Positions 7,301 through 29,668 of a DNA stretch of 31,849 nucleotides are shown in pieces. Made by a program: the position numbers and the translations under genes. This stretch comes from an uncultured Oscillospiraceae bacterium (GTDB taxonomy: Bacteria; Bacillota_A; Clostridia; Oscillospirales; Oscillospiraceae), in the NCBI GenBank assembly GCA_910579155.1, contig CAJTTS010000034.1, positions 1 to 31,849 on the forward strand. Reading direction: 5' to 3'. The notes below the pieces were generated by a model, which worked only from the letters and a program-made list of their open reading frames with translations, had not been told where the DNA came from and made no database searches. Each line of letters starts with the position of its first letter. Position 1 is the first letter of the stretch.

Positions 7301-7758
7301 CGGAGGCCCTCGACAGCGAGGCAAAAAAACTCGACACCATGCGAGACGACCCGACAAAAAAATATGTCGGACGGTGTCAAACGGTGTCGAATTTAGAAAG
7401 GCCGCAAACACCCGATATGTTTGCGGCCTTTCTTCAAAAAAAGTAATTAAGTTGTTGAATTCAGTGGTTCTAAAAGATCCCACTGGCGGCGGTACAGATA
7501 GTGAATTTTGTCTGACCGCTGGTAAATCTTTGTAAAACAGCAACACATACAGCGTGTTGGGCAAGCGGTGGAGGCGGGGGACTCTCTATCTCTCCGCACT
7601 CAATCAAGGCGAGATGCACATCGCCTCGACCCGTGGCCTTGCGGCTGGATCGCGCCACCGATCCAACTTAACGACAGGGTGCATCATGTAAAGCAACGGA
7701 CTCGGTACAAAAGTTGAAAAAGGGCTATAGATTGATTATGTCAAGCTATTTACGTCAC
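7301..7758. other. Intergenic stretch between SLH gene and sigma-like gene
   Basis: At 7330-7390 there are one GACACC and two GGTGTC hexamers, the latter as an ACGGTGTC tandem, plus a CCGACA/TGTCGG hairpin around an A-run. These lie where the promoter of the minus-strand sigma-like gene should be and may be regulator sites. A strong hairpin at 7397-7431 follows. From 7470 to 7700 the minus strand has a coding-like stretch split over two frames: a 27-codon frame from ATG 7689 (MMHPVVKLDRW) stopping near 7608, and a second open frame 7470-7658. This could be a frameshifted small gene, but I cannot identify it. Confidence 0.35.
7397..7431 (-). terminator. Terminator downstream of the SLH protein gene
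   Basis: A perfect 14-bp stem, AAAGGCCGCAAACA (7397-7410) with 7418-7431, and a 7-nt loop. On the minus strand the stem itself ends in CCTTTCT. It lies about 330 bp downstream of the SLH gene stop and insulates the sigma-like gene from it. Confidence 0.65.
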
Positions 7759-10700
7759 TCACTTTCGTTTATGCAGAAAATTGTAAAGCATCTGCGCTGT
7801 CTCTGCGCGGGTGGCCTGCCCGGTGGGGTCCAAAATACCGCCGCCCTTTCCATTGAGGATGCCGCGCTCCGTTGTCCAGCGCAGGGCTTCCTCCGCCCAA
7901 TCGCTGGCCTTGTACGCATCGGCAAAGTGCAGCTCCCGATCCGTAGCGGCGGGGCTTCCGGCGTACCGCCACAGCATGACAGCCAACTGCGCCCTGGTGA
8001 TGTTATCGTTGGGGCCGAAGGCTCCGTTGCCGTAGCCCCCGATGATGCCCTGGGCCGCTGCCCAGGACACCCCCTCGGCGTACCACTGGCCGTTGTCCAC
8101 GTCCGCGAATACGCCCGTAAGGGCTTGGGTGGGGTTGTTCTCCAGGTTGTGGAGCACCACCGCCAGCATCCCTCGGCTCATGGGGGCCTCGGGGCTGAAC
8201 TGCCCGGGGGCGGTGCCGTTGAACAGCTCGTGGGCGCTGGCAAAGGCCACGGCGTCCGCCGCCCAGCTCGTGGCGGGCACGTCGGCAAAGGTGCCGCTGT
8301 TGTCCACGATCTCCAGCTTAGCGGAACCGTCCAGGGGGATGGTCACAGCGCCGTTATCCGCCACGGACTTCCGTACAACTTCCCGTGTGCCGTCCTCCCG
8401 TACCAGCACCGCCACGGTGCCGGGGGTGGCGCTGGCCGTGGGCACAGTGAGGGTCACGCCGCCGGGAACATTCTCCACGGTTTTTCCTCCCGCCGTCACA
8501 GTCAGCTCCACCGTGTTCCCCGTCTGCTGGGCGGTGACGGTGACGGCGCCGCCCGCGCTGGACAGGCTGCCCAGGCCCCCGTTGGGGATGGTCACGTCGG
8601 CCACGGGGGTGGATACCGTCAGGCTGGCGTTTGTCTGGCTCCCGAGCTGCCCCACGGTGGAGGCAGGGATGGACACCTCCGCTTTGGTCACGCTCCCGGT
8701 GATCTTGGGGGCGATCACCACATCCTCGCTCTTGTTGGCCACGGCCTGTTTTACGATCTCCTGGCCCATGGTGGTGTTGACGGTGGTGGTGGTTGTGCCG
8801 CCCTGAGTGCTGGCTGTGGGGGCGGCGGTGGTTGTGGTGGTCACGTTGGAGCTGCCCTGCCCGGTGGTGGTGACGGGGAGGGTGGAGCTGCCGGGGGTGC
8901 TGGGGCCGGAGGGCACATAGGTGCCGCCCCCGCCTGTGCTCTGTACCCACGGCGTAATTTTGCCCGTCAGGGTGGTGTAGTTGGCCGTGTCGGTGGGGGT
9001 AAAGATCCACTCATAGGCGGTGTTGGCCGTCACTTCCGTGGTGTCGGCCAGGGCCCAGGCCACGGTGCCCGTAGGTTTCAGATTGCTCCCCTCGGTGGTC
9101 AGTCTCACATCCGCCAGGGTCTTGCCGCTGGCGGAGATGGCGGTGTACTTGGGCGCGCCCGTGGGAGTGGCCTTGTTGATGGTCACAACAACGGTGCCCG
9201 TGGCCTCGGCGTAGTTGTCCTTGTCGGTGGGCACGAATTTGACGGTCTTGGTGCCGCTGTCCGCCACGTTGGTCAACGCCTGATTCTCCGCAAAGCTCCA
9301 TGTGCCGGGGACGTTTTTCCCGTCAACCGTGGCGGTGCCCTTAATTGCGGTATCGGGAACGGCCTCGCCGGTGTAGGTGATGGTGATGGGGTTCGCCGCC
9401 AGGGTGGGCACGAATTTGTCTGTAACGGTGACGGTGATGGTCAAGTCAAAAGCGTTGTAATTGGTGGTGCTGGTCACGGGAACGGTGATCGTGCCGGTCT
9501 GCCCCTTCTTTTGACCGTCATTCACCAGCTTATAGGTCAGCACCGCGCCGTCCACAGAGGGTTCGCCCTCAAAAATGCCGTTATTATCTGTTTTGGTGGG
9601 CGTATCCAGCACATAGCCAGCCGGGAGCAGGTTGGATAGATCATAGGTTTTCGTCATGCCGAACTTGCCGGAGGTGCTGGCGGTGGTTGTGCCGGAGTAG
9701 GCGGCCTTGGCGATGTTCAGCGTTACCTTGGCCGTCAGCGGATTATAGTTGCCTGCGCCAGTGGCCGGGGTGAAGGTGGCGGTGTACTCGCCGCTGTCCC
9801 CCACGTTGGGAACCGTGTCCCCGGCCAGCTTCCAGGTGCCCGCCACATCGTTTCCGTTCAGCTTGGCGGTCAGGCCCTCAACGGTCAGGGCGGACAGCTT
9901 ATCGCCGTAGGTGCCTTTGGCGGTGCCGGTGCCGTCCACGGTCAGGTCGGCTTTGCCGATGGTGAAGGCGCCCTGGGCGGTGCCGGAGTAGTTGCCTTTG
10001 CCTGTGACGGTAATGGTGGCGGTGCCAGCATTGGTGTTGCCGGCGTAGGCCACGGTGTAGTCGATGTCCTTCACCAGCGTTTGCCCACCCAGGGTCACAA
10101 CAGGATCGGGTGTGAGGGCGCTCCCGGTGTAGGTGAACGGGCCGGTGGCACTCACTGACGCCCCGGCGAAGGGCTTGGCAGTGATGGTGAAGGTGGTGGA
10201 GCCGCTGACATCGTAGTTGCCCGCCACATTCGCGATGGTGACGGTGGCGGTGCCAGCGTTGGTGTTGTTGCTGTACCCCACTGTGTACTCGCTGGCCGGG
10301 ATTATGGTATTGCCGTCCTTAACAACAACGGCGGGCTTCTTCTCGGTGCCGTCATAGACAAAGGTATCGGGGGTCAGCGCAATGGCAGGGCTGGTGACAG
10401 GTTTGGGGCTGATGGTCACTGTCAGCGGGGTGGTGCTTGCCGCCGCTGTATTGTCCGTTTCCGGGATGTTGGCGGTGAGGGTGTATGCCCCCGCGTTCAT
10501 TGGCTCGGCGCTCCAGTCAAAGGTCACATCAGCATAAGTCGCGCCAGTGATGGTCAGATCGTCCGCCGTGGGGTTAGGGATCGTCTGACCGTCATAGGTT
10601 TTGCTTGGGTCATAGCCTTCGGCAAAGGCGATTGTGGGCTGGGATTTGCTGATGGTCAGCGTCAGCGTGTTCGTACTCTCGGCGGCGGCATAGTTGCCTT

Positions 10701-13611: not shown

Positions 13612-13671
13612 TATGCCGCCGTTGATGGTCAGCCTGCCGCCGCAGCCAGCGCTGTCATTAAGAGTTATTCT
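13612..13671 (-). pseudogene. In-frame upstream remnant of the SLH protein gene without start codon
   Basis: On the minus strand this 20-codon stretch reads ITLNDSAGCGGRLTINGG in frame with the gene below. It matches the style of glycine-rich repeats in giant clostridial surface proteins, where ITINGG-type units precede GIGGG-type units. It contains no ATG, GTG or TTG codon and begins directly after an in-frame TAG. This indicates that the original gene extended further upstream and was cut here by a deletion or insertion. Confidence 0.55.
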
Positions 13672-13692
13672 CTATTTTATCATCTTTACGAG

Positions 13693-13720
13693 AAAAAGTC
13701 TGCCTCCTGGCAGACTTTTT
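13693..13720 (-). terminator. Rho-independent terminator
   Basis: A perfect 12-bp stem AAAAAGTCTGCC (13693-13704) / GGCAGACTTTTT (13709-13720) with a 4-nt loop and T-runs on both strands. It would stop minus-strand transcripts from the GH65-AKR-GH13 operon before they enter the SLH gene remnant. Confidence 0.75.
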
Positions 13721-13730
13721 CGACAAGCTG

Positions 13731-13764
13731 AGTGCGGCAGCCTGGATATCCAGGCTGCCGCACT
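13731..13764. repeat. Perfect 34-bp palindrome
   Basis: Positions 13731-13747 are the exact reverse complement of 13748-13764, with no unpaired centre (GGATATCC at the middle). GTTTTA follows on the plus strand. It sits beside the terminator at 13693-13720 near the truncated end of the SLH gene. It may be a second terminator, or a palindromic unit connected with the rearrangement. Confidence 0.6.
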
Positions 13765-16572: not shown

Positions 16573-18831
16573 TCATTTCAATGCCTGCTGCCAGCGGTCC
16601 CGAACAAAGATCAACTCCCCATTTATCGCAATTTCCAGAGGCTCCCCCTGTAGTAGCTCACAAACAAATTCCTCAGCGTTGAAGCGGATTTCCAGCAGCC
16701 TTTCGCGGTAATGCAGCCGCATTTTAACCTGTTCCCATTTTTCCGGACAGTGAGGCGAAAAGGAGAGCTGTCCCCCTTGGTAAAACATTCCGGCAAACCC
16801 GTGCATCAGCGCAATCCACGATCCTGCCATGCTGGTGATATGCAGGCCATCCTCTGTGTCGGCGTTGAAGTTATCCAAATCCAGACGCGCGGCCTGCTGG
16901 TACAGCCGGTAGGCGTCTGCTTCAAATCCGCACGCCGACGCTACAGTGCTGTGCATACTGGGGGACAGGGAGGACTCATGGACAGTCAAAGGCTCGTAAA
17001 AAAGGAAATTTGCCCTTTTTTGTTCCAGCGTGAACCTGCGGGGGAAGTAGTAGAATGCTAAGATGACATCTGCTTGCTTGATGAAGCAGGAACGCAGGAT
17101 GCGATCCCAAGACCAATGTTTGCACAGGGGAAGCTCATCGGCAGGGATTTCAGCGGCGGGGTAGATTTCCTTATCCATGAATCCGTCCTGCTGGATGAAC
17201 AGCATAGTTTCTGGATCATAGTTCAAGTACATTTTGTCTGCGACTTCCTGCATTTTCTGCATCTGCGCCGTGTCTAACGGGTAGGACAGCTTTTTTACCC
17301 AGTCCAGCGTATATTCGATGGACCACTTAGCCATATAATTGGTGAGAAAATCGTTGTTCACATTATTGTCGTATTCATTTGGGCCGGTGACACCCAAAAG
17401 CATATAACAATCTTTGTCTGGCTGATAGCTGGCGCGGCAAGCCCAGAAACGCGCGATCTCCACCATTACATGGATGCCATAATCCCGGATATAGCTTTCA
17501 TCGCCGGTATATTCAGTGTAGCAGTAAATCGCATATACCATACCAGCATTGCGGTGCAGCTCCTCAAACGTGATTTCCCATTCATTGTGGCACTCCTCGC
17601 CGTCAAAAGTCACCATAGGGTAAAGAGCGCCGGCCATCCCAATTTTTGCTGCGTTCTCTTTTGCCTTTTCCAGTGTATTATAGCGGAATTTCAACAGCTT
17701 CCGCGCCGTATCAGGTGTGGATGTAACCAGATACATGGGGAAACAATACCCTTCTGTATCATAGTAGGCCGCGCCGCCATATTTTTCCCCAGTGAAACCC
17801 TTGGGGCCAATGTTTAGCCGCTCATCACTCCCATCATAAGTGCTCCACAAATGAAACAGGTTGAAGCGGATGCCTTGCTGGGCGGCAATATCACCATCAA
17901 TTGTTACATCGCATAGCTGCCACCTCTTTGCCCATGCTGCCGCCTGCCTCTGGCGAAGGGTAACTGTACCTTCATCTGCCGCGTGGGCAAGGATTCCGCC
18001 TCCCACTGAGGCCAATTCCTCGCGGGGGATGTCCCGGGTGGTGACCACACTGACCAACTTTTCTATGTGGAACGCGTCCCCGGCACTTAACTCGGCCTCA
18101 AAACGATGGAATACGCAACGCTCTCCCTGAATGCAGCTCTGCCGTACACTGTCCTCCATGCAGTGGGCATGGGAGGTAAAGCCCACCGCAAATCGGGGGA
18201 CATCAAACGAATTTTCCATGGTTTCGCTCTCCAAATACAGCCTGTCTCCTCCCTCCAGGGCTCGCAACACCCAGAACTGATCTCCATAATTTGCGTCTGA
18301 GTTCTTGACGTTGGCATCCAAGCCCGTCTCTATAGTCACGAAGCCCACATCATCCAAGGCGGTGACAGAGTAGGTCATGCAGGCAATTTGTTTGGTGTCA
18401 ATCGAGAAAAAACGGGAGGACACAATCTTCAGCCGGCCGCTTTCTGTGCGCAGCACCATCTCCCTCTCCATGACACCGGTGCGCATATCTATCACCCGGC
18501 GGAATGTCTCAATAGGGGTCTGGGCGAGATCAATTCTCCTGCCATTTACAGATAGGTGGAACATCAAAAAATCCGGCGCATTGATGACCTTCCCAAAATA
18601 GCGGGGGTATCCATTTTTCCACCAGCCTACACGGGTTTTATCCGGCATCCAAACGCCGGCAATATATATGCCTTTTAGTGTATCTCCGGTGTAATCTTCC
18701 TCGTAATTTCCACGAGCGCCCATATACCCGTTTCCCAAGCTCATGACGGATTCAGCCGGCCGGTTTTCGCTGTGGTCAATTTCTGTCTGGATTAAGCAGA
18801 ATGGATCAAGTTCTCGTAAAATACGTTTCAA
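16573..18831 (-). CDS. malP: Maltose phosphorylase (GH65)
   Basis: A glycoside hydrolase family 65 inverting phosphorylase. It converts maltose and phosphate to glucose and beta-D-glucose 1-phosphate in the cytoplasm. Catalytic Glu486 lies in GVTGPNEYDNNVNN, one position from Glu487 of Lactobacillus brevis maltose phosphorylase, and the length (752 aa) is nearly identical. FTGEKYGGAAYYDTE resembles the maltose phosphorylase loop and not the longer kojibiose/trehalose phosphorylase version. An N-terminal beta-sandwich, (alpha/alpha)6 barrel and small C-terminal domain are all present. The start is TTG 18831 (MKRILREL) because AGGAG lies eight bases upstream; GTG 18840 overlaps that site. A promoter and two TTATCGATAA operators lie just upstream. 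The product beta-glucose 1-phosphate is the substrate of the fused phosphoglucomutase at 26902. Another alpha-glucobiose as true substrate is possible. Confidence 0.88.
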   Translation of the reverse strand: MKRILRELDPFCLIQTEIDHSENRPAESVMSLGNGYMGARGNYEEDYTGDTLKGIYIAGVWMPDKTRVGWWKNGYPRYFGKVINAPDFLMFHLSVNGRRIDLAQTPIETFRRVIDMRTGVMEREMVLRTESGRLKIVSSRFFSIDTKQIACMTYSVTALDDVGFVTIETGLDANVKNSDANYGDQFWVLRALEGGDRLYLESETMENSFDVPRFAVGFTSHAHCMEDSVRQSCIQGERCVFHRFEAELSAGDAFHIEKLVSVVTTRDIPREELASVGGGILAHAADEGTVTLRQRQAAAWAKRWQLCDVTIDGDIAAQQGIRFNLFHLWSTYDGSDERLNIGPKGFTGEKYGGAAYYDTEGYCFPMYLVTSTPDTARKLLKFRYNTLEKAKENAAKIGMAGALYPMVTFDGEECHNEWEITFEELHRNAGMVYAIYCYTEYTGDESYIRDYGIHVMVEIARFWACRASYQPDKDCYMLLGVTGPNEYDNNVNNDFLTNYMAKWSIEYTLDWVKKLSYPLDTAQMQKMQEVADKMYLNYDPETMLFIQQDGFMDKEIYPAAEIPADELPLCKHWSWDRILRSCFIKQADVILAFYYFPRRFTLEQKRANFLFYEPLTVHESSLSPSMHSTVASACGFEADAYRLYQQAARLDLDNFNADTEDGLHITSMAGSWIALMHGFAGMFYQGGQLSFSPHCPEKWEQVKMRLHYRERLLEIRFNAEEFVCELLQGEPLEIAINGELIFVRDRWQQALK

Positions 18832-18852
18832 AATAACCACTCCTCTCTTAAG

Positions 18853-18873
18853 TTATCGATAAATTATCGATAA
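18853..18873. promoter_or_regulatory. Tandem LacI-type operators TTATCGATAA upstream of maltose phosphorylase
   Basis: Two perfect 10-bp palindromes TTATCGATAA at 18853-18862 and 18864-18873, separated by one base. Their centres are 11 bp apart, one helical turn. They start within the -10 element of the minus-strand promoter and extend downstream, a position suited to repression. The same palindrome occurs at the other two promoter regions of this locus. The adjacent LacI-family gene is the obvious candidate protein. Confidence 0.75.
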
Positions 18874-18976: not shown

Positions 18977-19972
18977 CTATTGCTGCCTTAAGCGGGGAGG
19001 TGCGGTGGATTCTCGTACCATCAGGCGTGGTGTCTCCACAACTCGTGTCGCATTCTGGTATTTAATCAAGCTTTTCAAGCACATGAAAGCCCGAAACCCT
19101 ACGTCCTTGATATTGATGCGCACAGTGGTGAGGGCTGGGGAAATGTAGGTGGAAATACGGATATCGTCAAATCCCGTCACGCTCATATCTTGCGGAACCT
19201 GGAGCCCTTGTTTCTTCAGCCACCGGATGGCGCCAATAGCCATTAAATCGCTGGCACATACCAAGGCGGTAACACCCTTATCCAACAGCGTTTCCGCCCC
19301 CTCCTCCCCAGAATGTTCACTGAAGTTTCCATGATACACCAATTCCGGATCATACGTAAGCCCACCCAAGGTAATGGCACTGAGAAACCCAGCAAAACGC
19401 TCCCGGCTACTGAAACTTTGCTGCTCTCCGTTAATGAAGCCAATCCGCCTGTGGCCCAGTTGGATCAAATGGGCCACTGCCATCCCTATGCCGGAAAGGT
19501 TGTCCGATGTCACACAAGAAATTAGCTTCCCTTCCACATAGTTATCCACTAAAACAATTGGATAGGCAATTCTATCCAATTGGTCAAAAAAGGGGCTACT
19601 ATCATTAAGGCCAAGCACCATTGCACCATCGAAGCGCTCCTGCTCCATAATGTGGTAAAAAGAAGTGCAGTTCCCGTCCTCAAGGCTGCGGATAATCACC
19701 TCATAACCGTGGCCTTCAGCCACTTGCTTGAAGGCCAGCATTACTTCATACAAATAGTACGTCACATGAGGGGCTTCCATGCGCCCCATAAATACGCACA
19801 CCCGTTTGGAAATCTTCTGCCGTGCCCCCCCGGTATAACCCATTTCCGCAGCGGTTTCTAATACCGCCGCCCGTGTTTCTGCATTGATGTCATCTGCTCC
19901 GTTAAATGCTTTGTAGACCGTGCTGACGCTGATTCCCATCTGATTGGCAATGTCCTTTGCCTTGACTGCCAT
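18977..19972 (-). CDS. LacI-family transcriptional regulator
   Basis: A 331-aa cytoplasmic sugar-responsive regulator, probably a repressor of the whole locus. The N-terminal LacI HTH is VKAKDIANQMGISVSTVYKA with NG following, then the hinge region (TRAAVLETAAEMGY). Residues about 60-331 form a periplasmic-binding-protein-like effector domain (VLVDNYVEG, LGHRRIGFING, VTGFDDI, TTVRINIKDVG). The start ATG 19972 has TAGGTGG five bases upstream; GTG 19981 overlaps that site. It is transcribed divergently from the ABC importer operon. Its own promoter (20040-20068) lies next to an operator at 20093, so autoregulation is possible. The effector is not evident; a maltose-type sugar or phosphorylated sugar is likely from context. 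Confidence 0.92.
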   Translation of the reverse strand: MAVKAKDIANQMGISVSTVYKAFNGADDINAETRAAVLETAAEMGYTGGARQKISKRVCVFMGRMEAPHVTYYLYEVMLAFKQVAEGHGYEVIIRSLEDGNCTSFYHIMEQERFDGAMVLGLNDSSPFFDQLDRIAYPIVLVDNYVEGKLISCVTSDNLSGIGMAVAHLIQLGHRRIGFINGEQQSFSSRERFAGFLSAITLGGLTYDPELVYHGNFSEHSGEEGAETLLDKGVTALVCASDLMAIGAIRWLKKQGLQVPQDMSVTGFDDIRISTYISPALTTVRINIKDVGFRAFMCLKSLIKYQNATRVVETPRLMVRESTAPPRLRQQ

Positions 19973-20039
19973 TATATCCACCTACCGCTGCTAAATCCCA
20001 AGCCGCTGTTTGAGCAGCTTAAGATCATTATTATTATTT

Positions 20040-20092: not shown

Positions 20093-20124
20093 TTATCGAT
20101 AAAAATAGTTGACATTATCGATTT
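20093..20124. promoter_or_regulatory. LacI-type operators at the ABC importer promoter
   Basis: A perfect TTATCGATAA at 20093-20102 lies just upstream of the -35. A second, TTATCGATTT, at 20115-20124 lies between the -35 and -10. Centre distance is 22 bp, two helical turns. A regulator bound at the second site would directly block RNA polymerase. Confidence 0.7.
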
Positions 20125-20258: not shown

Positions 20259-21569
20259 ATGAAAAGAATGTCCATGAAACGCATTGCAGCTTTGCTGGCA
20301 TCCGCAGCCCTGGTACTTACAACTATGGTTGGCTGTACGCAGAGTCCCCCCTCCGAGTCTGGCACCGGGGCAAACACCGCCCCCATTTCCGATGCACCTG
20401 AACAGACCAATTCTCCCACAGGAGGCGGCACCATTTCTGTATGGGCAGAACCGTCCTGCTATGCCTGGGTGCAGGAGATGGCTGCAAAGTGGGAGGAAGA
20501 AACCGGAAATCATGTGGAACTCACAGAAATGCCTATGGTAGACGGCGACTATAAGCACGCTTTGGACGGCCCTGCCGGACTTGGGCCGGATCTGATGGCC
20601 GGCCCCCACAATGACGTGGGAGACAAAAGCACTCAAGGAATGTACGCTCCCATCAAGCTCAGCGATGAGGCGCTGTCCTGCATTGTACCCGCTGCAGTAG
20701 ATGCCTGCACCTTTGAGGATAACCTCTATTTGGTGCCGCTGTACATGAGCACCAACCTGCTGATTTATAACAAAGATCTGGTTCCCACTCCGCCCGACAC
20801 TTGGGATGAGCTGCTGGCAGTCATCAATGATCCCAAGTTTGATAATAACGGCGACGGTTCCTTGGGCTTCCTTTGCAACCTAGGCGATTTCTACAACTCC
20901 GCTGGCTTTATCTGGGCCGGGGGCGGCTATGTGTATGGCAATAATAACACCGATCCATCCGAGATTGGCCTGAATAACGAGGGTGCCGTGGAAGGCGCCA
21001 CCCGGGTCAAGGAACTGTTCGGCCTGATGCCCAAGGGCATGGGTGACCGTACCACCGCCAATGATTTGATGCTGGGCCTGTTTACTGAGGGCAAGGTGGG
21101 CATGATGGTGCGCGGCGCCGACGTAATTCCCTCCTTGGTGGAGGCCAATATCAACTATGGCTTGGCCCGTATGCCCAAGCTTCCCAATGGCAATGTAATT
21201 GCAAACTACTCTGGGTTTACCGGCATGGCGATGAGCGGCTTTGCCCATGAGCCTGAACTGGCCACAGAGTTCCTCAACTTTATTGTCCAGGATCAGTTTG
21301 CGGCCTCCTTTGCGGAAAAGACCGGCCTAATCCCTTGCAACCAGAAATACCTGGACGACAACAGCTCCACTAATGAAACCATTAAGGCGTTCAATGAACA
21401 GATCTCCTACAGCGTGCCCATGGTGAAAATCATTGAGGGCAACCAGACCTGGGATCCTATGCACGCCGCAATGGGTTCCCTGGCCACCGGTGCCGATCCA
21501 AAAGAAGCCCTGGACATCGCTGTCAAGCAGATTGAGGATAATATCGCCTCGCTACACGCCGGCCAGTAA
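20259..21569 (+). CDS. Sugar ABC transporter substrate-binding lipoprotein (MalE-like)
   Basis: A 436-aa extracellular solute-binding protein anchored by lipid. The N-terminal signal peptide (MKRMSMKRIAALLASAALVL) ends in a lipobox, TMVGC, with Cys26 as lipidation site, followed by a Ser/Pro/Gly linker. The mature part is a family-1 carbohydrate-binding fold: GTISVWAEPSCYAWVQEMAA at its start, PDTWDELLAVINDPKF in the middle, and ATEFLNFIVQDQFAASFAEK with TGLIP near the end. This pattern is typical of maltose/maltodextrin-type binding proteins. AAGGAGG lies seven bases before the ATG. It is the first gene of an operon with two permeases and is followed by an intergenic hairpin. The ligand is inferred to be a maltooligosaccharide from the neighbouring enzymes. 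Confidence 0.92.
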   Translation: MKRMSMKRIAALLASAALVLTTMVGCTQSPPSESGTGANTAPISDAPEQTNSPTGGGTISVWAEPSCYAWVQEMAAKWEEETGNHVELTEMPMVDGDYKHALDGPAGLGPDLMAGPHNDVGDKSTQGMYAPIKLSDEALSCIVPAAVDACTFEDNLYLVPLYMSTNLLIYNKDLVPTPPDTWDELLAVINDPKFDNNGDGSLGFLCNLGDFYNSAGFIWAGGGYVYGNNNTDPSEIGLNNEGAVEGATRVKELFGLMPKGMGDRTTANDLMLGLFTEGKVGMMVRGADVIPSLVEANINYGLARMPKLPNGNVIANYSGFTGMAMSGFAHEPELATEFLNFIVQDQFAASFAEKTGLIPCNQKYLDDNSSTNETIKAFNEQISYSVPMVKIIEGNQTWDPMHAAMGSLATGADPKEALDIAVKQIEDNIASLHAGQ

Positions 21570-21642: not shown

Positions 21643-22962
21643 ATGAAGGGAAAAAACACAAAGCACCAAACCACTGCCACATTACTGGCGCTGATCCCGG
21701 GCTTTGGCCACTTTTATAACGGGCAGTTCTGGCAAGGCGGCGCAATTTTGATCGTTATGGCCGCCTATGGCTTTCTCACTGCAGAAACCATTTTCTCAGG
21801 CGTACAGGGCGGCGGGCTGGCCGGCCTGTTCACACTGGGCACAGTGCCAGGCCAGGATCATTCCCTGTTCTTTCTGGTGGAAGGGCTGCTTGCCTTGGTA
21901 TTGGTCGCCGTCGGAATTGCGGTTTACCTGTTCAGCATTTTTAACGCGAGGAAAAACGGTCGTCTCCGGGATGAGGGAAAGCCGCTATACAGCCTGCGGG
22001 AGCAATATAAATCCGTGATGAACCGGGGCTTTCCATATCTGATTATGGCCCCCGGGCTGGTAGTCATGACCCTGGCCGTGGTGTTCCCCACTGTCACCAA
22101 TATCATGATCTCCCTGACCAACTATAACGTCAATCATATGCCGCCCAAAAAGCTGTTTGGCTGGGTGGGGCTGCAAAACTATATTGATATGTTCACCATG
22201 GACTCGTGGATGAACGCCTTATTGCACACCCTGTCTTGGACAGTGATTTGGACGGTGTGTGCCACGTTACTCACCATTGTGCTGGGCATTCTGGTTGCAG
22301 TTATAGTCAATCAGAAGGAGATCCGCTGCAAGCGCTTTTGGCGCACCATCATCATCCTGCCGTGGGCAGTACCCGCTTTTATCTCAATTTTAATGTTTGC
22401 CGTTTTTTTCAATGATTCCTTTGGTGCTATGAATCAGCAGGTTATCCCCTTCTTCGATAAGCTGCTGCCCTTTTTAAAGCTCTCGGCCCTGCCCTGGAAA
22501 ACCCAGGTAGGTTTTACCCGCTTGGCGCTGATTCTGATCCAGGGCTGGCTGGGCTTTCCCTATATTTTTGTGATGGTAACCGGCGTGCTCCAATCCATCC
22601 CCTCCGAGCTGTACGACGCCGCCCAAATTGATGGGGCCAGCCGGTATCAGCAGTTTAGGCGTATCACGCTGCCATGGGTGCTGGCAGCTACCGCACCGGT
22701 GCTTATTACTCAGTTTACCTTTAATTTTTCAAACTTCAATGTCATTTACTTGTTCAACAGCGGGGGGCCCGTCATTGCGGGACAGCTTACTGGTGGGACA
22801 GATTTGCTGGTGTCCTGGGTATACAAAATCACTACAGAGAGTGTAACACGAGAATTTGGTATGGGCGCAGCTATTACCGTATTCATCTCGCTCATCGTTA
22901 TGGTCATCGCACTGACCCAGTATATCCGTACCGACGCCTTCAAGGGAGGAAATGAACGATGA
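21643..22962 (+). CDS. Sugar ABC transporter permease, MalF-like
   Basis: A 439-aa inner-membrane permease. The C-terminal 300 residues are a standard family-1 sugar permease with about six membrane segments and the EAA loop (IPSELYDAAQIDGASRYQQF) that contacts the ATPase. The N-terminal 140 residues carry an additional hydrophobic region (TLLALIPGFGHFYNGQFWQG, then VEGLLALVLVAVGIAVYLFS) as in MalF-type permeases with extra N-terminal segments. GAGGAGGG lies five bases before the ATG. It overlaps the next gene by the ATGA of stop and start. With its MalG-like partner it forms the channel for the lipoprotein's ligand. Confidence 0.92.
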   Translation: MKGKNTKHQTTATLLALIPGFGHFYNGQFWQGGAILIVMAAYGFLTAETIFSGVQGGGLAGLFTLGTVPGQDHSLFFLVEGLLALVLVAVGIAVYLFSIFNARKNGRLRDEGKPLYSLREQYKSVMNRGFPYLIMAPGLVVMTLAVVFPTVTNIMISLTNYNVNHMPPKKLFGWVGLQNYIDMFTMDSWMNALLHTLSWTVIWTVCATLLTIVLGILVAVIVNQKEIRCKRFWRTIIILPWAVPAFISILMFAVFFNDSFGAMNQQVIPFFDKLLPFLKLSALPWKTQVGFTRLALILIQGWLGFPYIFVMVTGVLQSIPSELYDAAQIDGASRYQQFRRITLPWVLAATAPVLITQFTFNFSNFNVIYLFNSGGPVIAGQLTGGTDLLVSWVYKITTESVTREFGMGAAITVFISLIVMVIALTQYIRTDAFKGGNER

Positions 22963-23843
22963 ATGATGTGAGGCAGCGCAACACAGCCTGTAGAGCAAAA
23001 AATTTTCTGTGCGCCGCAGGAATGTACCTGTTCCTAATTGTGGTGTGCATCGTGATCATTTATCCCATTTTATGGATTGTCTTTTCATCCTTCAATCCCT
23101 CCCAGTCCATGTTTTCCTCTACGCTGGTGCCTAAAGAGATGAACCTGGATAACTACATCTGGCTGTTCACCAATCCGGACAGCAATTACCTGTTGTGGTT
23201 CAAAAATTCGATGAAAATATCCTTGATCGTCATGGTGCTACAGCTTATCCTAGTGTCCTTTACTGCTTACGCTTATTCGCGGTTTAATTTTCGGGGGAAA
23301 AAGTTCGGTTTGCTTATCTTCATGGTGCTTCAGATCCTTCCGCTCACCTCCGCTATGATTGCTTTCTATGCGTTGGGAATACTGCTTGGTTTGGTTCAGA
23401 ACCACGCCCATGCCTACCTCATTGCTATTTATGTTGGCAGCGCTATTCCTGGCAATACCTACCTAGTAAAAGGCTATCTGGATAATATCCCCAAGGAACT
23501 GGATGAAGCTGCCCACTTGGATGGTGCAGGAAATTTCACTACCTTTTTCCGCATCGTCATGCCCCTGGCAAAACCGATTTTGGCCGTACAGGCATTGTGG
23601 GCCTTTATGACACCACTTCAAGATTTTGTCATCGCCAAACTAATTATCCGGGATCCCAACCTGAACACGCTGGCCGTGGGACTCCAATCCTTTGTATCGG
23701 GCAGCATGACAGGAGGCTCTCAGATGCAATTTACCAAATTTGCCGCAGGATCACTGCTTATCGCCCTTCCCATTGCACTATTGTATGTATTCCTCCAGAA
23801 ATATTTGATCAGCGGTCTGACTGCCGGAGGAACAAAGGGATAA
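22959..23843 (+). CDS. Sugar ABC transporter permease, MalG-like
   Basis: A 294-aa inner-membrane permease and partner of the MalF-like protein. It has about six membrane segments beginning with GMYLFLIVVCIVIIYPILWI and the EAA loop IPKELDEAAHLDGAGNFTTF. Its start ATG overlaps the previous stop (ATGA), indicating translational coupling. No ATP-binding subunit follows: the operon ends in a bidirectional terminator 40 bp downstream. The transporter must therefore use an ATPase encoded elsewhere, as known for MsmX-type shared ATPases in Bacillota. Confidence 0.92.
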   Translation: MNDVRQRNTACRAKNFLCAAGMYLFLIVVCIVIIYPILWIVFSSFNPSQSMFSSTLVPKEMNLDNYIWLFTNPDSNYLLWFKNSMKISLIVMVLQLILVSFTAYAYSRFNFRGKKFGLLIFMVLQILPLTSAMIAFYALGILLGLVQNHAHAYLIAIYVGSAIPGNTYLVKGYLDNIPKELDEAAHLDGAGNFTTFFRIVMPLAKPILAVQALWAFMTPLQDFVIAKLIIRDPNLNTLAVGLQSFVSGSMTGGSQMQFTKFAAGSLLIALPIALLYVFLQKYLISGLTAGGTKG

Positions 23844-23933: not shown

Positions 23934-24938
23934 TCATCTGTGGAAGCGGGGAAGGGCCCCATAACCCTGCTTTATTGCAGTGATAATATCATCTTCCCAC
24001 TGCTCCAGGCTACTGTCAGGAATAGTTCCCTGTTCCTCCATGGCATGGAAAACCCGGCACATTCCCTCTGCCAAGCCAATCTGGGGCTGCCACTCGGGCA
24101 CGTCCCGGCGCAGCTTGTCATTGGCGGCATAGGTATGCTGCCCGAAAATCTCATTGCACAGCGCGAACCGTTCAGGGTCTATCTCCATGAGCTGGGATAG
24201 GGGAAGGCCCACCAGCTCTACCTCCTGGCCCAATACCTGCATGGCCGTCCGGTGATATTCTGCCCAGGTGGTGCACCCAGTCTGGGTTACGTTATAAACC
24301 TGACCGATGCAGTGCTGCCGGCCCATAACCCCCACGAAGCCGCGGGCAGTGTCCTCAGTATGCATATATTGGTGCAGGATGTCGCCGTCCCCGCAGATAA
24401 GGATAGGTTTCCCTTTTTTGACCCTATCGATCCAGGTGTGCTCAGTAGTAAGGTTGCGCAACATCCCGCTCATTTCACTATACGAGGTACAGGGTTTCAT
24501 GATGGTGACAGGGAACCCCTCGCGACGGAAGGCGTCCAGGTACATCAAATCTGCGGCGTGCTTGTTGATACCGTACTGTATACAGGGTTGAAACCAGTCC
24601 TCTTCCCGGATGGGAAAGTGGTTGAAGTGCTTCCCATAGGTACATACAGTAGAGGCGGTAATAAAGTGCTTTACATCCCGGAAGGCTTCAATGCTCACCT
24701 GTGCGTCTTGGGCATCAAAGCAAGTCAACTCAAAAGCGATATCGGGCTTCAGCTCACGCATCACACGGATATATGCCTGCTCGTTGTGCCGATCCCCGGA
24801 AATATACCGTACCGCCTCCGGATGAATAGAACGCTCCATCCTGTCAAAACAAACAATGTCGTCATATCCTTGCCTAAGCAATTCCCGGATGATGTGCGCC
24901 CCAATATTTCCGTTCCCACCAGTCACAACAATTCTCAT
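23934..24938 (-). CDS. NAD(P)-dependent epimerase/dehydratase (extended SDR)
   Basis: A 334-aa extended short-chain dehydrogenase/reductase of the NAD-dependent epimerase/dehydratase family. The N-terminal nucleotide-binding motif is VVTGGNGNIGAH (GxxGxxG), acidic Asp32 follows the second strand (FDRM), and the catalytic residues are Ser96 in ITASTVCTYG and Tyr122-x-x-x-Lys126 in YGINK. The substrate is probably a sugar or sugar nucleotide, not determined. ATG 24938 has AGGAGGT six bases upstream and overlaps the stop of the preceding GH13 gene (ATGA), so the two are translationally coupled. An SDR in a maltodextrin operon is unusual and suggests that a modified sugar is processed. Confidence 0.88.
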   Translation of the reverse strand: MRIVVTGGNGNIGAHIIRELLRQGYDDIVCFDRMERSIHPEAVRYISGDRHNEQAYIRVMRELKPDIAFELTCFDAQDAQVSIEAFRDVKHFITASTVCTYGKHFNHFPIREEDWFQPCIQYGINKHAADLMYLDAFRREGFPVTIMKPCTSYSEMSGMLRNLTTEHTWIDRVKKGKPILICGDGDILHQYMHTEDTARGFVGVMGRQHCIGQVYNVTQTGCTTWAEYHRTAMQVLGQEVELVGLPLSQLMEIDPERFALCNEIFGQHTYAANDKLRRDVPEWQPQIGLAEGMCRVFHAMEEQGTIPDSSLEQWEDDIITAIKQGYGALPRFHR

Positions 24939-26653
24939 AACATGACCTCCTGTCCATTGGCAAAAATTTTGTACCCCATGGGAGCCAGGGAAAGAATTTG
25001 CCCCGCCTGTCCGTCCCACGGCAGCTTACATTGTACCGGTTCGTCTCCTGGATTCCAAATCATCACAACTGTATCCCCATCCGTACGCCGGAGAAACGCC
25101 AGCGGGGCAGATCCCTGAATGGGTTGGGGATCCAGCCAACGGAATACGCCCTCGGATAACGCTGGGTGGGCTTTGCGGAAGGCTACAAGGTTTCGATATA
25201 GCTTCAGCAGCGTTTGTCCCGCCATGTTTGCCGGCGTAAAGCACATACATCGTCTGGCTTTGATAAAATCTTCCCCGACCATCCCGGTTTCGTCCCCATA
25301 GTAGATGGCAGGCATTCCCACAAATAAGAATTGGAATACCACAGAACAAGCAACGGCTTCTTCCCGTCCTTTGGCAAGGGTCAGCCACCGAGCAGTATCA
25401 TGGGATCCCAGCAGATTATACATACACTGGGTCATGGGTTCCGGGTAGTGTGTAAGCAACCGATTTATCTCTTGCCGGAAAGCTGTAGCGCCCAGCGTGC
25501 CATCAAGGAAGTGGGAGCGACATATGGTGGTGAAAGGATAATTCATCACGCTATCAAACATATCTCCCGCGAGGTACGGTTGGGAGTCTCCCCATACCTC
25601 GCCGATGATAAGGGCCTCCGGATTGATAGCCTTTACCTCCCGTCGAAAATCCCGCCAAAAAGATAAATCAATCTCATTGGCCACATCCAGCCGCCAGCCA
25701 TCGATGCCAAGTTGTGTCCAATACCGCGCCACCTCTAACAGATAGCGGCGTACCTCGCGGTTTTCCGTATTCAGCTTTGGCATATGCCGTTCAAAAGAAA
25801 ATCGCTCATAACGGTATACCTCATCCACTGCCAGTGGATATTCCTTGATGAAATACCAGTTGACATAGGGAGATTCAGAACCGTTTTCCAATACATCCTG
25901 GAAGCGTGGGAAGGTATCGCAGGTGTGGTTGAAAACCGCATCTAACACGACGCGAATACCCCGGCGGTGACAATCCATTAGCAGGGATTTGAAGTCTTCC
26001 AAGGTTCCCAGCCGGGAGTCCACTTTAAAATAATCATAGGTATTATACCGGTGGCAGCTATTAGACTGGAAGATTGGGCACAGGTATAAAGCGTTGATCC
26101 CCAGTCCGGAGAGATAGTCCAATCTGTCCCGCAGACCTCCCAAATTGCCGCCAAGGTGAGCAACGACATCTGGTTCACTGCCCCAGGATGGAAAGTCCTC
26201 CCCGGTAGGGGTGGGCTCCTTACGGGCGAAGGAATCTGGGAAGATTTGATAAAACACCGCTTCCTTGGCCCACCCAGGTACAGTAATGGCATCTGTCCGG
26301 TTCAAATAAGGCATCTGGAAACAGCTCTCCGTACAGCCGTCTGCCGTCTGATGGCAGCCTATTTCATCCAAGTACCACACTGCGCCCGATCGATCCATCA
26401 ATTCAAAATAATATTGGAGCCGACGGTATTTAGGTGTAATACTGATGCGAAAATAAGAAAACAGGCTGTCGCTGAGGATAGATTCCATTTCCACCGCCGC
26501 TATACTTTCATCTATACAGTATTTATCAAACCAGAACAACCTTGCTCTAAGGATATCGTTGCTGCCTACCCGCAAAAGAATTGTGGCCGTACCATTTGTG
26601 TCATAATATGCGAATTCGTTTCTTGGTCGATGGTAAACTGCTTCAACCTTCAT
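24935..26653 (-). CDS. Neopullulanase/cyclomaltodextrinase-like GH13 enzyme
   Basis: A 572-aa cytoplasmic GH13 enzyme (subfamily 20 type) without signal peptide. Residues 1-120 are an N-terminal beta-domain like CBM34 of neopullulanases, and the catalytic barrel begins at WAKEAVFYQIFPDSF (129-143). Motifs are LDAVFNHT (237-244), GWRLDVANE with nucleophile Asp323, IIGEVW with acid/base Glu352, and LLGSHDT with Asp419. MPKLNTENREV is typical of the neopullulanase/maltogenic amylase group. The likely action is to hydrolyse or transglycosylate maltodextrins or cyclodextrins to maltose and glucose for the maltose phosphorylase. ATG 26653 has GAGGAGG seven bases upstream. Its promoter faces the fused phosphoglucomutase gene across a shared operator region, and its stop overlaps the SDR start. 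Confidence 0.92.
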   Translation of the reverse strand: MKVEAVYHRPRNEFAYYDTNGTATILLRVGSNDILRARLFWFDKYCIDESIAAVEMESILSDSLFSYFRISITPKYRRLQYYFELMDRSGAVWYLDEIGCHQTADGCTESCFQMPYLNRTDAITVPGWAKEAVFYQIFPDSFARKEPTPTGEDFPSWGSEPDVVAHLGGNLGGLRDRLDYLSGLGINALYLCPIFQSNSCHRYNTYDYFKVDSRLGTLEDFKSLLMDCHRRGIRVVLDAVFNHTCDTFPRFQDVLENGSESPYVNWYFIKEYPLAVDEVYRYERFSFERHMPKLNTENREVRRYLLEVARYWTQLGIDGWRLDVANEIDLSFWRDFRREVKAINPEALIIGEVWGDSQPYLAGDMFDSVMNYPFTTICRSHFLDGTLGATAFRQEINRLLTHYPEPMTQCMYNLLGSHDTARWLTLAKGREEAVACSVVFQFLFVGMPAIYYGDETGMVGEDFIKARRCMCFTPANMAGQTLLKLYRNLVAFRKAHPALSEGVFRWLDPQPIQGSAPLAFLRRTDGDTVVMIWNPGDEPVQCKLPWDGQAGQILSLAPMGYKIFANGQEVML

Positions 26654-26764
26654 ATGCTTTCCTCCTCGTTGGTAATCGAACAATCTCCCTGTTCTTTTAT
26701 GCACAGGAAAAAGATAGGACAGCAACACTCTGTAAAACAGTCTTATACGGCTGCCCCTTTTTAT

Positions 26765-26819: not shown

Positions 26820-26840
26820 TTATCGAAAATTTATCGATAA
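26820..26840. promoter_or_regulatory. LacI-type operator pair in the divergent promoter region
   Basis: TTATCGAAAA (26820-26829) and a perfect TTATCGATAA (26831-26840) have centres 11 bp apart, the same arrangement as at 18853-18873. The pair lies immediately upstream of the -35 of the plus-strand operon and between the two divergent promoters, so one bound regulator could affect both. Confidence 0.7.
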
Positions 26841-26843
26841 ATA

Positions 26844-26872
26844 TTGATTGTGGGCTGAGGTGCTGGTATAAT
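26844..26872 (+). promoter_or_regulatory. Predicted promoter of the phosphoglucomutase-isomerase fusion operon
   Basis: TTGATT (26844-26849), a 17-bp spacer and a perfect TATAAT (26867-26872), 30 bp before the ATG. Confidence 0.65.
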
Positions 26873-26901: not shown

Positions 26902-28143
26902 ATGGAAGTTCGCCTTGTTATATTTGATCTAGATGGCGTTGTGGTTAACACCGATGAATTTCATTTTATGGCGTGGGAACAGGTATTGCTGAACAAATGG
27001 GGCATCTGTCACACACGCGGGGCAGAGGATCTTACTAAAGGCATCCCTCGGTATACCTGCATGGAGCTACTGGCAAAACACTATCATATTGCGGCTACTC
27101 CACAAGAACTGCACCGCACGGCAGACGAAAAAAACACAGTCTATCAAGAATTGTTGCGAACCATGCTTTCCCAGCAACAAATTATGCCTGGGATCATGGA
27201 AACCCTCCAACTTCTTCAGGAGCACAATATACCTATAGCACTGGCATCTTCTAGCCATAGTGCAGCCTTTATCTTGGAAAAACTGGGACTAAATTTCGAC
27301 TTTTGTGTAGATCCGGACTCGGTAACCCATGGAAAACCTGCCCCTGATATTTATTTAGCTGCCGCATCTCATTTTGGACTGCCACCGGAGGCTTGTGTCG
27401 GTGTGGAGGATGCTGCCAGCGGCATAGCCTCTATACGCGCGGCAGGGATGTTCTGTGTAGGAATTGGTATGCCAGCCCTGGAAGGCGGAGCAGATGCGAC
27501 TGTCAGTTCCACAGACCAACTCCCGGGAGTATTTGCGTCCCTTTTGGGATTGCCACCATTCCTGAACTGGTTCACGGGCTTTTCTGTAGCGCTGACTTTC
27601 CCTTCCTCCTTGACAACGCAGACAACAACACGCCGTCTTAGCCATATGGCAGGATTTTTTAGGGATCAAGCTACAGTCAAGGAACTGTTAGAACAGGGAA
27701 TCGATCCAATAATCTATGAATTTCATGAACTGGCCGCGCCAAAGCATCCGGGAGACGTTTCCTTTGGCCTTACAACCCTCTATCCTGGAAATATTGGCGA
27801 GGAATGCTTTATGACCAAAGGACATTTTCATCAAATCCTGGAAACCGGGGAGGTTTACTATACTTTACAGGGCTCCGGGTTACTGCTGACTGAACACACC
27901 GACGGCACGGTGCGCTGGTTTCCACTGGTGCCCGGCAGCGCAACCTATGCGGCAAAGGGATTTGCTCACCGAATGGTGAACACAGGGGATAAACCGCTGA
28001 TATGCTTTTTTGCATACAGGGCCGACGCAGGCCATGATTACAATACAATTGGCTTATCTGGCCTCCAAAAGCGGGTATTCCGCAGGGGAAATAGAATTGA
28101 GATTGAGTCCGCAAATGTGCGGGCGAAGGGGGAAATACAATGA
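26902..28143 (+). CDS. Fused beta-phosphoglucomutase and cupin-type glucose-6-phosphate isomerase
   Basis: A 413-aa two-domain cytoplasmic enzyme. Residues 1-205 are a HAD-superfamily beta-phosphoglucomutase, which converts beta-glucose 1-phosphate to glucose 6-phosphate. It has nucleophile Asp9 and acid/base Asp11 in FDLDGVV, Lys145 in HGKPAPD, and Glu169-Asp170 in GVEDAASGI, the last three at the same numbers as in the Lactococcus enzyme. Residues about 245-390 are a cupin glucose-6-phosphate isomerase of the archaeal (PF06560) type: FMTKGHFHQ with His308 and His310, Glu317 in GEVYY and His356 in AHRMVN are the metal ligands, and ADAGHDYNTI follows. The isomerase makes fructose 6-phosphate. 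The ATG at 26902 has AAAGGGAG eight bases upstream. The chain thus joins the two steps after maltose phosphorylase. The stop overlaps the deoC-like start (ATGA). Confidence 0.9.
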   Translation: MEVRLVIFDLDGVVVNTDEFHFMAWEQVLLNKWGICHTRGAEDLTKGIPRYTCMELLAKHYHIAATPQELHRTADEKNTVYQELLRTMLSQQQIMPGIMETLQLLQEHNIPIALASSSHSAAFILEKLGLNFDFCVDPDSVTHGKPAPDIYLAAASHFGLPPEACVGVEDAASGIASIRAAGMFCVGIGMPALEGGADATVSSTDQLPGVFASLLGLPPFLNWFTGFSVALTFPSSLTTQTTTRRLSHMAGFFRDQATVKELLEQGIDPIIYEFHELAAPKHPGDVSFGLTTLYPGNIGEECFMTKGHFHQILETGEVYYTLQGSGLLLTEHTDGTVRWFPLVPGSATYAAKGFAHRMVNTGDKPLICFFAYRADAGHDYNTIGLSGLQKRVFRRGNRIEIESANVRAKGEIQ

Positions 28144-28835
28144 TCGACATAAACACACTGACAACGCAAACCCTTGCAGCATTATTTGACCACACGCTAC
28201 TTCGGCCTAACGCAACGCATGAGCAACTTGCTCAACTTTGTACCCAAGCCATTCAGTATGGCTTTAAAATGGTAGCAATCAACTCTGCTCCCGTGGCCTT
28301 TTGCCGGGAATGTTTGAATGGGAGCCCTGTTCATGTAGGCGCAGCTATCAGTTTTCCACTGGGACAGACTACTACTGCGATCAAACTGGCTGAGACGGAA
28401 CGTGCTATCCATGACGGTGCAGATGAAATTGATTATGTGATCAACCTTACCCAGGTAAAACAACACAACTGGAAGGCTGTGGAATTAGAAATGTCACAGC
28501 TCACACAGCTCTGTCGATTAAATGGTGTTGTCCTTAAGGCGATTTTTGAAAACTGTTATCTATCGAAGGACGAAATCTGCACACTTTCAGAAATTTCTAA
28601 AATGGTGTGTCCGAATTTTATCAAAACTTCCACTGGGTTTGGGCCTTCTGGGGCAGACGCGGAGGATGTCCGGCTGATGAAAACAATCGTGGGAGATTCA
28701 GTTTCAGTCAAGGCAGCGGGGGGAATCCGCAGTTGGGCGGAATGCCAGACAATGCTGGAGGCCGGTGCTGAGCGTATCGGAACTTCTAATAGTATAAAAA
28801 TATTGGAAGAATTTTGCACATGGAGGAAAGAATGA
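28140..28835 (+). CDS. DeoC-family aldolase (deoxyribose-phosphate aldolase-like)
   Basis: A 231-aa class I aldolase of the DeoC family. It should cleave 2-deoxyribose 5-phosphate to glyceraldehyde 3-phosphate and acetaldehyde, or act on a related substrate. Catalytic residues are present: Asp98 in DEIDYVINL, Schiff-base Lys162 in FIKTSTGFG and Lys191 in VKAAGGIR. Two segments differ from the classical enzyme: INLTQVK replaces the usual INIGALK-like segment, and LKAIFENCYL replaces the usual VKVIIETCLL, so this is a distinct subfamily. The start overlaps the stop of the phosphoglucomutase-isomerase gene, and its own stop overlaps the next ATG, so the three genes are translationally coupled. 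A deoxyribose aldolase has no role in maltose degradation, so its substrate here is open. Confidence 0.88.
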   Translation: MIDINTLTTQTLAALFDHTLLRPNATHEQLAQLCTQAIQYGFKMVAINSAPVAFCRECLNGSPVHVGAAISFPLGQTTTAIKLAETERAIHDGADEIDYVINLTQVKQHNWKAVELEMSQLTQLCRLNGVVLKAIFENCYLSKDEICTLSEISKMVCPNFIKTSTGFGPSGADAEDVRLMKTIVGDSVSVKAAGGIRSWAECQTMLEAGAERIGTSNSIKILEEFCTWRKE

Positions 28836-29668
28836 TGACGTTTGAAACCATGATTACGTTAAACAATGGAGTTCAAATCCCACAGCTTGGTTATGGCACT
28901 GCCCTCATCAGCGAAAACCAGAAGGAAACAGTACAATCTGTGCTAAATGCCTTGGAACTTGGATATCGGCATCTGGATACAGCTTCTGTATATTATAATG
29001 AAACAGCTGTGGGAGAAGCCATCCGTCAGTCCGGAATACCGCGCGATAAGCTGTTTGTCACTACCAAATTGTGGACAACAGATATGCGTATGGGGCGTGA
29101 ATATGACGCATTCCAGGAAAGTCTGTCCCGGCTGGGACTGGACTATGTGGATCTTTATCTCATCCATTGGCCAGTCCGGGGTCGGTATCAGCAGAGTTGG
29201 GAGGTTTTGGAGCGCATCCGCGAGGAGGGACTGGCCAGATCTATTGGCGTAAGCAATTTCAATCCACACCACATAGACGACATTATTTCCATGGGGGGGA
29301 CGGTACCAGCTATTAACCAGTATCAAATGCATCCACAGATGTCCTGCCCAGAGCTGAGAGCATATTGCCAGTCGCGTGGCACAGTTCTGGAGGCTTGCCA
29401 GCCACTGGGGCAAGGGCTGTATGTCTATGATCCGATATTAAGCAGGATTGGACGGAAATATGGGAAAAGCGCTGTGCAAGTGGTGCTGCGCTGGGAATTG
29501 CAACACGGTGTGGTGACGATTCCAAAAGGTACGCAGGTTGGGCATATAAGAGAGAATTGCAATCTGTTTGACTTTGAGCTAAACGCAGAGGATATGTCCG
29601 AAATTGATAGCATGAATATCAACCGTAGCATCACCCCTGACGCTGATCCAGAGACTTTCACATTTTAA
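28832..29668 (+). CDS. Aldo/keto reductase (classical NADPH type)
   Basis: A 278-aa single-domain aldo/keto reductase of the 2,5-diketo-D-gluconate reductase/aldose reductase type. It has LGYGT at residues 19-23, Asp49 and Tyr54 of the tetrad in LDTASVYYNE, Lys79 in VTTKLW and His112 in LIHWP. The C-terminal cofactor part has VTIPKGT and IRENCNLFDFEL. The ATG at 28832 overlaps the aldolase stop (ATGA) with GGAGG upstream; ATG 28835 is also possible. It is the third gene of the fusion-deoC-AKR operon, which makes reduction of an aldehyde or sugar formed by the aldolase an attractive but unproven role. It differs from the Fe-S aldo/keto reductase at 15466, which has an extra cluster domain. Confidence 0.9.
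   Translation: MMTFETMITLNNGVQIPQLGYGTALISENQKETVQSVLNALELGYRHLDTASVYYNETAVGEAIRQSGIPRDKLFVTTKLWTTDMRMGREYDAFQESLSRLGLDYVDLYLIHWPVRGRYQQSWEVLERIREEGLARSIGVSNFNPHHIDDIISMGGTVPAINQYQMHPQMSCPELRAYCQSRGTVLEACQPLGQGLYVYDPILSRIGRKYGKSAVQVVLRWELQHGVVTIPKGTQVGHIRENCNLFDFELNAEDMSEIDSMNINRSITPDADPETFTF

Follow-up and report, generated by a model that had tools for sequence, protein, structure and literature searches.

A putative bifunctional beta-phosphoglucomutase/cupin-type phosphoglucose isomerase fusion in a maltodextrin gene cluster of an uncultured Oscillospiraceae bacterium

In a 31,849-nt stretch of DNA from an uncultured Oscillospiraceae bacterium (contig CAJTTS010000034.1 of assembly GCA_910579155.1; the whole stretch is hereafter the window), a single open frame joins a beta-phosphoglucomutase (beta-PGM)-like domain to a cupin-type phosphoglucose isomerase (PGI) domain. 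The fusion of two complete domains is real, and its product is probably (at about 0.85 by our estimate) a bifunctional enzyme of a maltodextrin regulon, predicted from sequence to convert beta-glucose 1-phosphate into fructose 6-phosphate. This assignment draws on the domains and their active-site residues, on a conserved gene linkage with conserved operator-like sites, and on the common descent of the mutase halves. The gene is laid out as follows, with residue numbers referring to the 413-aa protein.

Positions 26902 to 28143, plus strand: fusion gene with beta-PGM-like and cupin PGI domains (413 aa; ATG at 26902, stop at 28143)
Positions 26902 to 27552, plus strand: beta-PGM-like (HAD) domain, residues 1-217, from Pfam, NCBIfam and alignment
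Positions 27553 to 27576, plus strand: short linker, residues 218-225, with pLDDT below 50 at 220-225
Positions 27577 to 28125, plus strand: cupin PGI domain, residues ~226-408, with metal ligands H308, H310, E317 and H356

The frame has no internal stop, and a GGGAG lies about 8 nt ahead of its ATG. Searched separately, the two halves match PF00702 at residues 3-182 (E 2e-25) and PF06560 at residues 244-385 (E 4e-22; 79 bits, well over the gathering cut-off of 20.7), while PDB sequence searches align residues 4-207 with the B. subtilis beta-PGM 3nas (E 6e-36) and residues 239-401 with the P. furiosus cupin PGI 4lta (E 6e-43). An earlier, sequence-only reading had described two complete enzymes in one frame, the second of PF06560 type; both domains are indeed full-length by Pfam, PDB sequence and homologue matches, and the frameshift or sequencing error between the domains that it had named as fatal is absent, the architecture being unbroken in homologues.

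In a database of 5.8 billion proteins (7998 candidates scored, 252 matches), the full architecture was found in 9 of the best 120 of the 252 matches, at query coverages of 94-100%. These comprise the window's own near-identical cluster (P0002, 99% identical), P0003 and P0004 (76%), P0005-P0007 (57%), P0008 (52%), and P0009 and P0010 (43-44%), and the named catalytic residues are invariant in the 8 further full-length clusters (76-42% identical). Three genomes carry the gene, all in a cluster with a GH65 gene: G001 (DNA 99.9% identical to the window over 20 kb), G417 (76%), and G785, Candidatus Fournierella merdavium (locus L001, 57%). The dN/dS ratios between the window and G417 (mutase half, 0.05; cupin half, 0.12; joint, 0.27; synonymous changes near saturation) indicate that purifying selection acts on both halves.

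In the cupin half, His308, His310, Glu317 and His356 align with P. furiosus His88, His90, Glu97 and His136, the four metal ligands, as had been proposed, and T291, T305, Y319, Y372, H378 and Y380 also match the P. furiosus enzyme. The former bind the metal in cupin PGIs, and substrate residues are found among the latter. H308, H310, E317, H356, H378 and Y380 are invariant in 10 aligned rows. The fusion is the sole PF06560 match in G001 and G417; G785 has a second, borderline one (20.7 bits). The earlier view of cupin PGI as best known from archaea does not hold: in a genome scan, 30 of the 31 cupin-PGI loci that lack the fusion are bacterial by record title (a biased sample, the scan having retained the 80 best loci by likeness to the fusion query), and bacterial cupin PGIs appear in the accessible parts of published work (PMC12965863, PMC2876114, PMC7304191). 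Since bacterial cupin PGIs are established, the surprise at finding one here falls away.

In the mutase half, Asp9 and Asp11 align with Asp8 and Asp10 of L. lactis beta-PGM, and the catalytic residues named in the sequence-only reading are kept in the fusions. The corresponding residues of the window protein are D9, D11, T17, H21, W25, K46, R50, K77, S116, S118, K145, E169 and D170. Across the nine fusion rows (the window and P0003-P0010), L. lactis D8, D10, T16, H20, W24, K45, R49, K76, S114 and S116 are kept in 9/9, as are K145, P146, E169 and D170. Of these, D8, D10, S114, K145, E169 and D170, together with T16, H20, R49 and K76, are active-site residues of beta-PGM; T16, H20, V47-R49 and A115-K117 line its substrate site according to the accessible text of PMC7608592. 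H20, W24, R49 and K76 are informative, because few of the 91 lower-scoring HAD relatives from the same search keep them (17, 18, 10 and 19, respectively), whereas all four occur in 16/16 beta-PGM-like relatives, the two groups being our own split by search rank and name. At L. lactis Lys117-Asn118 the window protein has His-Ser, the first position being variable among beta-PGMs. The half also passes the TIGR02009 subfamily model (163.2 bits; cut-off, 153.35).

The genomic setting of the gene agrees with the proposed function. Its neighbours and intergenic elements are these.

Positions 16573 to 18840, minus strand: GH65 maltose phosphorylase, 755 aa (PF03632/PF03636/PF03633), the presumed source of beta-glucose 1-phosphate
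Positions 18853 to 18873: upstream of the GH65 gene, two operator-like copies 11 bp apart
Positions 18977 to 19981, minus strand: LacI-family regulator by Pfam, presumably operator-binding
Positions 20093 to 20102: operator-like copy between lacI and malE
Positions 20259 to 21569, plus strand: MalE-like solute-binding protein (NCBIfam MalE and GanS models, below cut-off)
Positions 21643 to 22962, plus strand: MalF-like permease (best model MalF, below cut-off)
Positions 22959 to 23843, plus strand: MalG-like permease (best model MalG, below cut-off)
Positions 23934 to 25019, minus strand: NAD-dependent epimerase-like protein, overlapping the GH13 gene as listed
Positions 24935 to 26728, minus strand: GH13 cyclomaltodextrinase/maltodextrin glucosidase-like protein, divergent from the fusion
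Positions 26820 to 26840: two operator-like copies 11 bp apart, TTATCGAAAA and TTATCGATAA, in the interval that separates the fusion from the divergent GH13 gene
Positions 26844 to 26872, plus strand: promoter-like TTGATT-17-TATAAT with TG before the -10, a consensus match only, 3' of the fusion's operator-like sites
Positions 28140 to 28835, plus strand: DeoC, deoxyribose-phosphate aldolase (TIGR00126, 217 bits; cut-off, 117), overlapping the fusion stop by 4 bases
Positions 28814 to 29668, plus strand: aldo/keto reductase by profile matches

Among the disaccharide phosphorylases compared, the GH65 protein is clearly nearest in sequence to maltose phosphorylase (758 bits to 1h54; the kojibiose phosphorylases score 399, for 6w0p, and 309), with which it has the stretch FDGxECHNEWEITFEExHRN in common. 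In the genus, where several genomes are incomplete (completeness from 64%), this phosphorylase (at least 84% identical) is present in 2/42 genomes, which are the only two fusion carriers. Seven further genomes have a GH65 protein at 31-36% identity, and in 6/7 a free-standing beta-PGM lies within about 3 kb on the same contig (in G411 it is on another contig). G001 has both layouts: on contig C7 a second GH65 (30%) stands beside a free beta-PGM, and its maltose phosphorylase goes with the fusion. The fusion thus occupies the place that a plain beta-PGM has in other systems. Neither the window nor the neighbouring stretches examined yielded a second beta-PGM.

The minus strand carries, in order, a GH13 gene, an aldo/keto reductase with an FeS domain, GH65 and lacI, followed on the plus strand by malE, malF and malG; after malG come the epimerase-like and cyclomaltodextrinase-like genes (minus) and then the fusion, deoC and the aldo/keto reductase (plus). 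The order from GH65 to this last gene, through lacI, malEFG, the epimerase, the GH13 gene at 24935, the fusion and deoC, is kept in G001, G417 and L001/L138. At L001, MalE aligned from residue 157 only and the smaller GH13 (45% identical) stands behind malG; in G417 neither that GH13 nor the FeS reductase was found next to GH65. The palindrome TTATCGATAA, at no more than one mismatch, has five sites in the window (18853, 18864, 20093, 26820 and 26831; 0.72 expected, with 0/100 shuffles reaching five), which lie ahead of GH65, malE and the fusion. In these three intergenic regions the sites number 5 in G001, 5 in G417 and 6 in L001, the shuffle test covering the window only. Promoter-like matches number 2 in the region, against 0.7 in shuffles. 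The suggested tie of the fusion to the maltose phosphorylase is supported by the conserved clustering and the shared operator-like sites; its placement behind that gene does not stand, GH65 lying 8 kb off on the minus strand and the fusion having its own promoter region.

Some further observations concern the surroundings of the cluster. The deoC and aldo/keto reductase genes (28140-29668) follow the fusion in 3/3 genomes with context, and the listed epimerase-like frame (23934-25019) shares 85 bases with the end of the GH13 gene; the epimerase probably starts further in. A 67-bp stretch (13665-13731), upstream of a 1950-aa frame (7759-13611, minus strand), has a 100% identical inverted copy in G001 (L117:4555-4621, contig C9), about 18 kb away and just past the right end of the window, so that the entire maltose cluster lies between inverted copies; the repeat may mark an invertible segment or be a shared promoter. 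A large serine recombinase-like frame (169-1830; XisF and Ccr families, below cut-off) occupies the left end of the window, and the matching G001 contig starts only at window position 7442.

In the proposed pathway, MalEFG would import maltodextrin, the GH13 enzymes would trim it, and the GH65 enzyme would phosphorolyse maltose to give glucose and beta-glucose 1-phosphate, the reaction typical of GH65 maltose phosphorylases. The mutase half would convert beta-glucose 1-phosphate into glucose 6-phosphate and the metal-dependent cupin domain would take this to fructose 6-phosphate, with the LacI regulator presumably co-controlling the three promoter regions through the TTATCGATAA sites. The ATP saving in maltose phosphorolysis stems from the phosphorylase, and the isomerase adds none; the earlier statement that half of each maltose enters glycolysis without ATP is to be credited accordingly. 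Growth of L. lactis on maltose is poor when beta-PGM is missing, as given in the accessible text of PMC7608592.

Several observations weigh against this assignment. The mutase half scores 184.3 bits against TIGR01990, the beta-PGM equivalog, under the cut-off of 189.4, the only family test made that either half does not pass; the shortfall of 5 bits is a matter of a naming threshold and not of a biochemical feature, and it is the reason for the wording beta-PGM-like domain. The window protein has Ser120 where 8/8 other fusion rows and 16/16 beta-PGM-like relatives have Asn (L. lactis N118). The predicted structure has a pTM of 0.54, leaving the relative placing of the domains uncertain. The gene context is known in three genomes, two of them drafts with listed contamination (G001, 7%; G417, 5%), and only G417 and L001 provide independent context, because G001 is nearly identical to the window. 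Lastly, a second PGI is not obviously needed, since all three carriers have an ordinary one (603 bits to NF010697 in G001, cut-off 443; PF00342 above cut-off in G417 and G785); the cupin half is therefore not needed merely to reach glycolysis, and it is an extra, cluster-bound PGI.

The presence of that ordinary PGI invites the alternative that only the mutase domain is enzymatic in vivo, the cupin being a structural or regulatory part that may sense sugar phosphates. Long cupin branches (1.66 for P0008; on the stems, 1.13 for P0009/P0010 and 0.84 for the other six) and the higher dN/dS of the cupin half, at near-saturated dS, point the same way, but the retention of metal ligands and substrate contacts, six of these residues being invariant, makes this alternative improbable. 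That the HAD domain instead dephosphorylates sugar phosphates, or has another hexose phosphate as its substrate, would fit the narrow miss of TIGR01990 and the existence of HAD phosphatases fused to a sugar enzyme (MtlD, 7ocn). It is more doubtful still, given that T17, H21, W25, K46, R50 and K77 are as in beta-PGM and mostly unlike the lower-scoring HAD relatives (less so at the T16 equivalent), that the domain scores 110-129 bits to beta-PGM chains against 42 to MtlD, and that the gene is linked to a maltose phosphorylase with no other beta-PGM found in the cluster. For an artefact (frameshift, assembly join, chimera or chance frame) nothing was found beyond the draft or metagenome state of the carrier assemblies, and it is rejected as next to impossible because the residues align with solved enzymes and are invariant in the 8 further clusters, down to 42% identity and without a stop, with the architecture in three genomes and both halves under purifying selection. 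A bifunctional enzyme is hence the preferred reading.

As to the origin of the fusion, the nine mutase halves form one clade against 68 other beta-PGM-like domains (77 rows; support, 100/99) and a quick tree with 101 rows (92 non-fusion, including the free beta-PGMs of G001) recovers it (SH-aLRT 95.9); those free beta-PGMs of the genus that entered a mutase-half tree were placed outside the clade of fusions. In a tree with 47 other cupin-PGI domains, of which four (P0011-P0014) belong to other multi-domain proteins, the best topology does not unite the nine cupin halves, two changes being needed; a single clade is not rejected (p-AU 0.41). The simplest reading is a single fusion event with later descent. 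The idea of an ancestral operon was rejected: GH65 or beta-PGM above 90 bits was found beside 0/31 non-fusion cupin-PGI loci within flanks of at most 10 kb, several of which ended early at contig ends; one locus, L007, has a 64-bit HAD gene about 9 kb from the cupin PGI. Other arrangements also involve cupin PGIs: P0011, P0012 and P0014 (514-522 aa) have a shikimate-dehydrogenase-like front (below cut-off) and a cupin PGI back, another cupin-PGI fusion, and in G340 (L095:1327-2681) the order is opposite to that of the fusion, a cupin PGI gene coming first and overlapping the HAD gene after it (62 bits to the beta-PGM half).

The fusion is scarce, being carried by 2/42 genomes of the genus sample, by G001 alone in the wider samples (1/400 in the family, 1/394 in the order, 1/391 in the class), and by 1 of the 80 best loci of a species-level contig scan that possibly left out near relatives of the window; none of 436 matching plasmid records covers 80% of the fusion query. 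Each of the two enzymes is well known by itself; their pairing is rare and seems not to have been described, a new combination of known families within the already known kind of sugar-phosphate enzyme fusions. To our knowledge, no enzyme of this architecture has been assayed. Searches of the open-licence literature, judged by titles and abstract starts, gave no description of it, in line with the earlier claim of no characterised counterpart; they say little on subscription journals.

Solved beta-PGMs (L. lactis PgmB 1lvh, B. subtilis 3nas, C. difficile 4gib; EC 5.4.2.6) resemble the mutase half in the whole fold, nucleophile, acid-base, His20/Lys76/Arg49 equivalents and linkage to a GH65 phosphorylase, but are single-domain chains of 218-250 aa at ~30-38% identity, without a second enzyme directly after and without the His/Ser at Lys117/Asn118. 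Cupin-type PGIs (P. furiosus 1x82, T. litoralis 1j3p; EC 5.3.1.9), for which Hansen et al. 2005, known through citing papers, is reportedly the reference, share the whole domain, metal ligands and substrate contacts at ~38-41% identity; the solved ones are free-standing (188-201 aa), whereas here the domain is the C-terminal half of a protein of a maltose cluster, in genomes with an ordinary PGI elsewhere. A 1046-aa GH65-beta-PGM frame of Paenibacillus thermotolerans (L052:7505-10645; GH65, 409 bits; beta-PGM, 132 bits) also has beta-PGM in one chain with the enzyme of a neighbouring step of the pathway, here the preceding step (the phosphorylase) instead of the following one. The bifunctional transaldolase/phosphoglucose isomerase (NF007080, known by model name; the model matched ordinary, non-cupin PGI here) and the MtlD dehydrogenase/phosphatase (7ocn) also combine two sugar-phosphate enzymes, with other partners. 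The same three steps, from maltose to fructose phosphates, make up an in vitro cascade of maltose phosphorylase, beta-PGM and PGI, which, in the accessible part of PMC10521662, is a man-made mixture of separate enzymes yielding fructose bisphosphate without ATP.

Joining the two enzymes may keep their stoichiometry fixed or speed the onward use of glucose 6-phosphate; a forward pull on the reversible mutase and handover of the beta-anomer are further possible reasons. In a dedicated two-step machine, the mutase would hand newly made beta-glucose 6-phosphate to the metal-dependent isomerase, either along its own chain or inside a cupin dimer, a proposal that we regard as unlikely but not far-fetched. 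It would explain why a second, unrelated PGI is kept only inside the maltose cluster, and, if true, half of each maltose would reach fructose 6-phosphate unmixed with the free glucose 6-phosphate pool. The bifunctional enzyme proposed here is directly testable with one expressed protein, and naming such fusion proteins by one half alone misleads. The fusion would represent a natural one-chain module for two steps built from separate enzymes in vitro, and it indicates that a cupin PGI can be the pathway-dedicated partner of beta-PGM and not a substitute for the housekeeping PGI.
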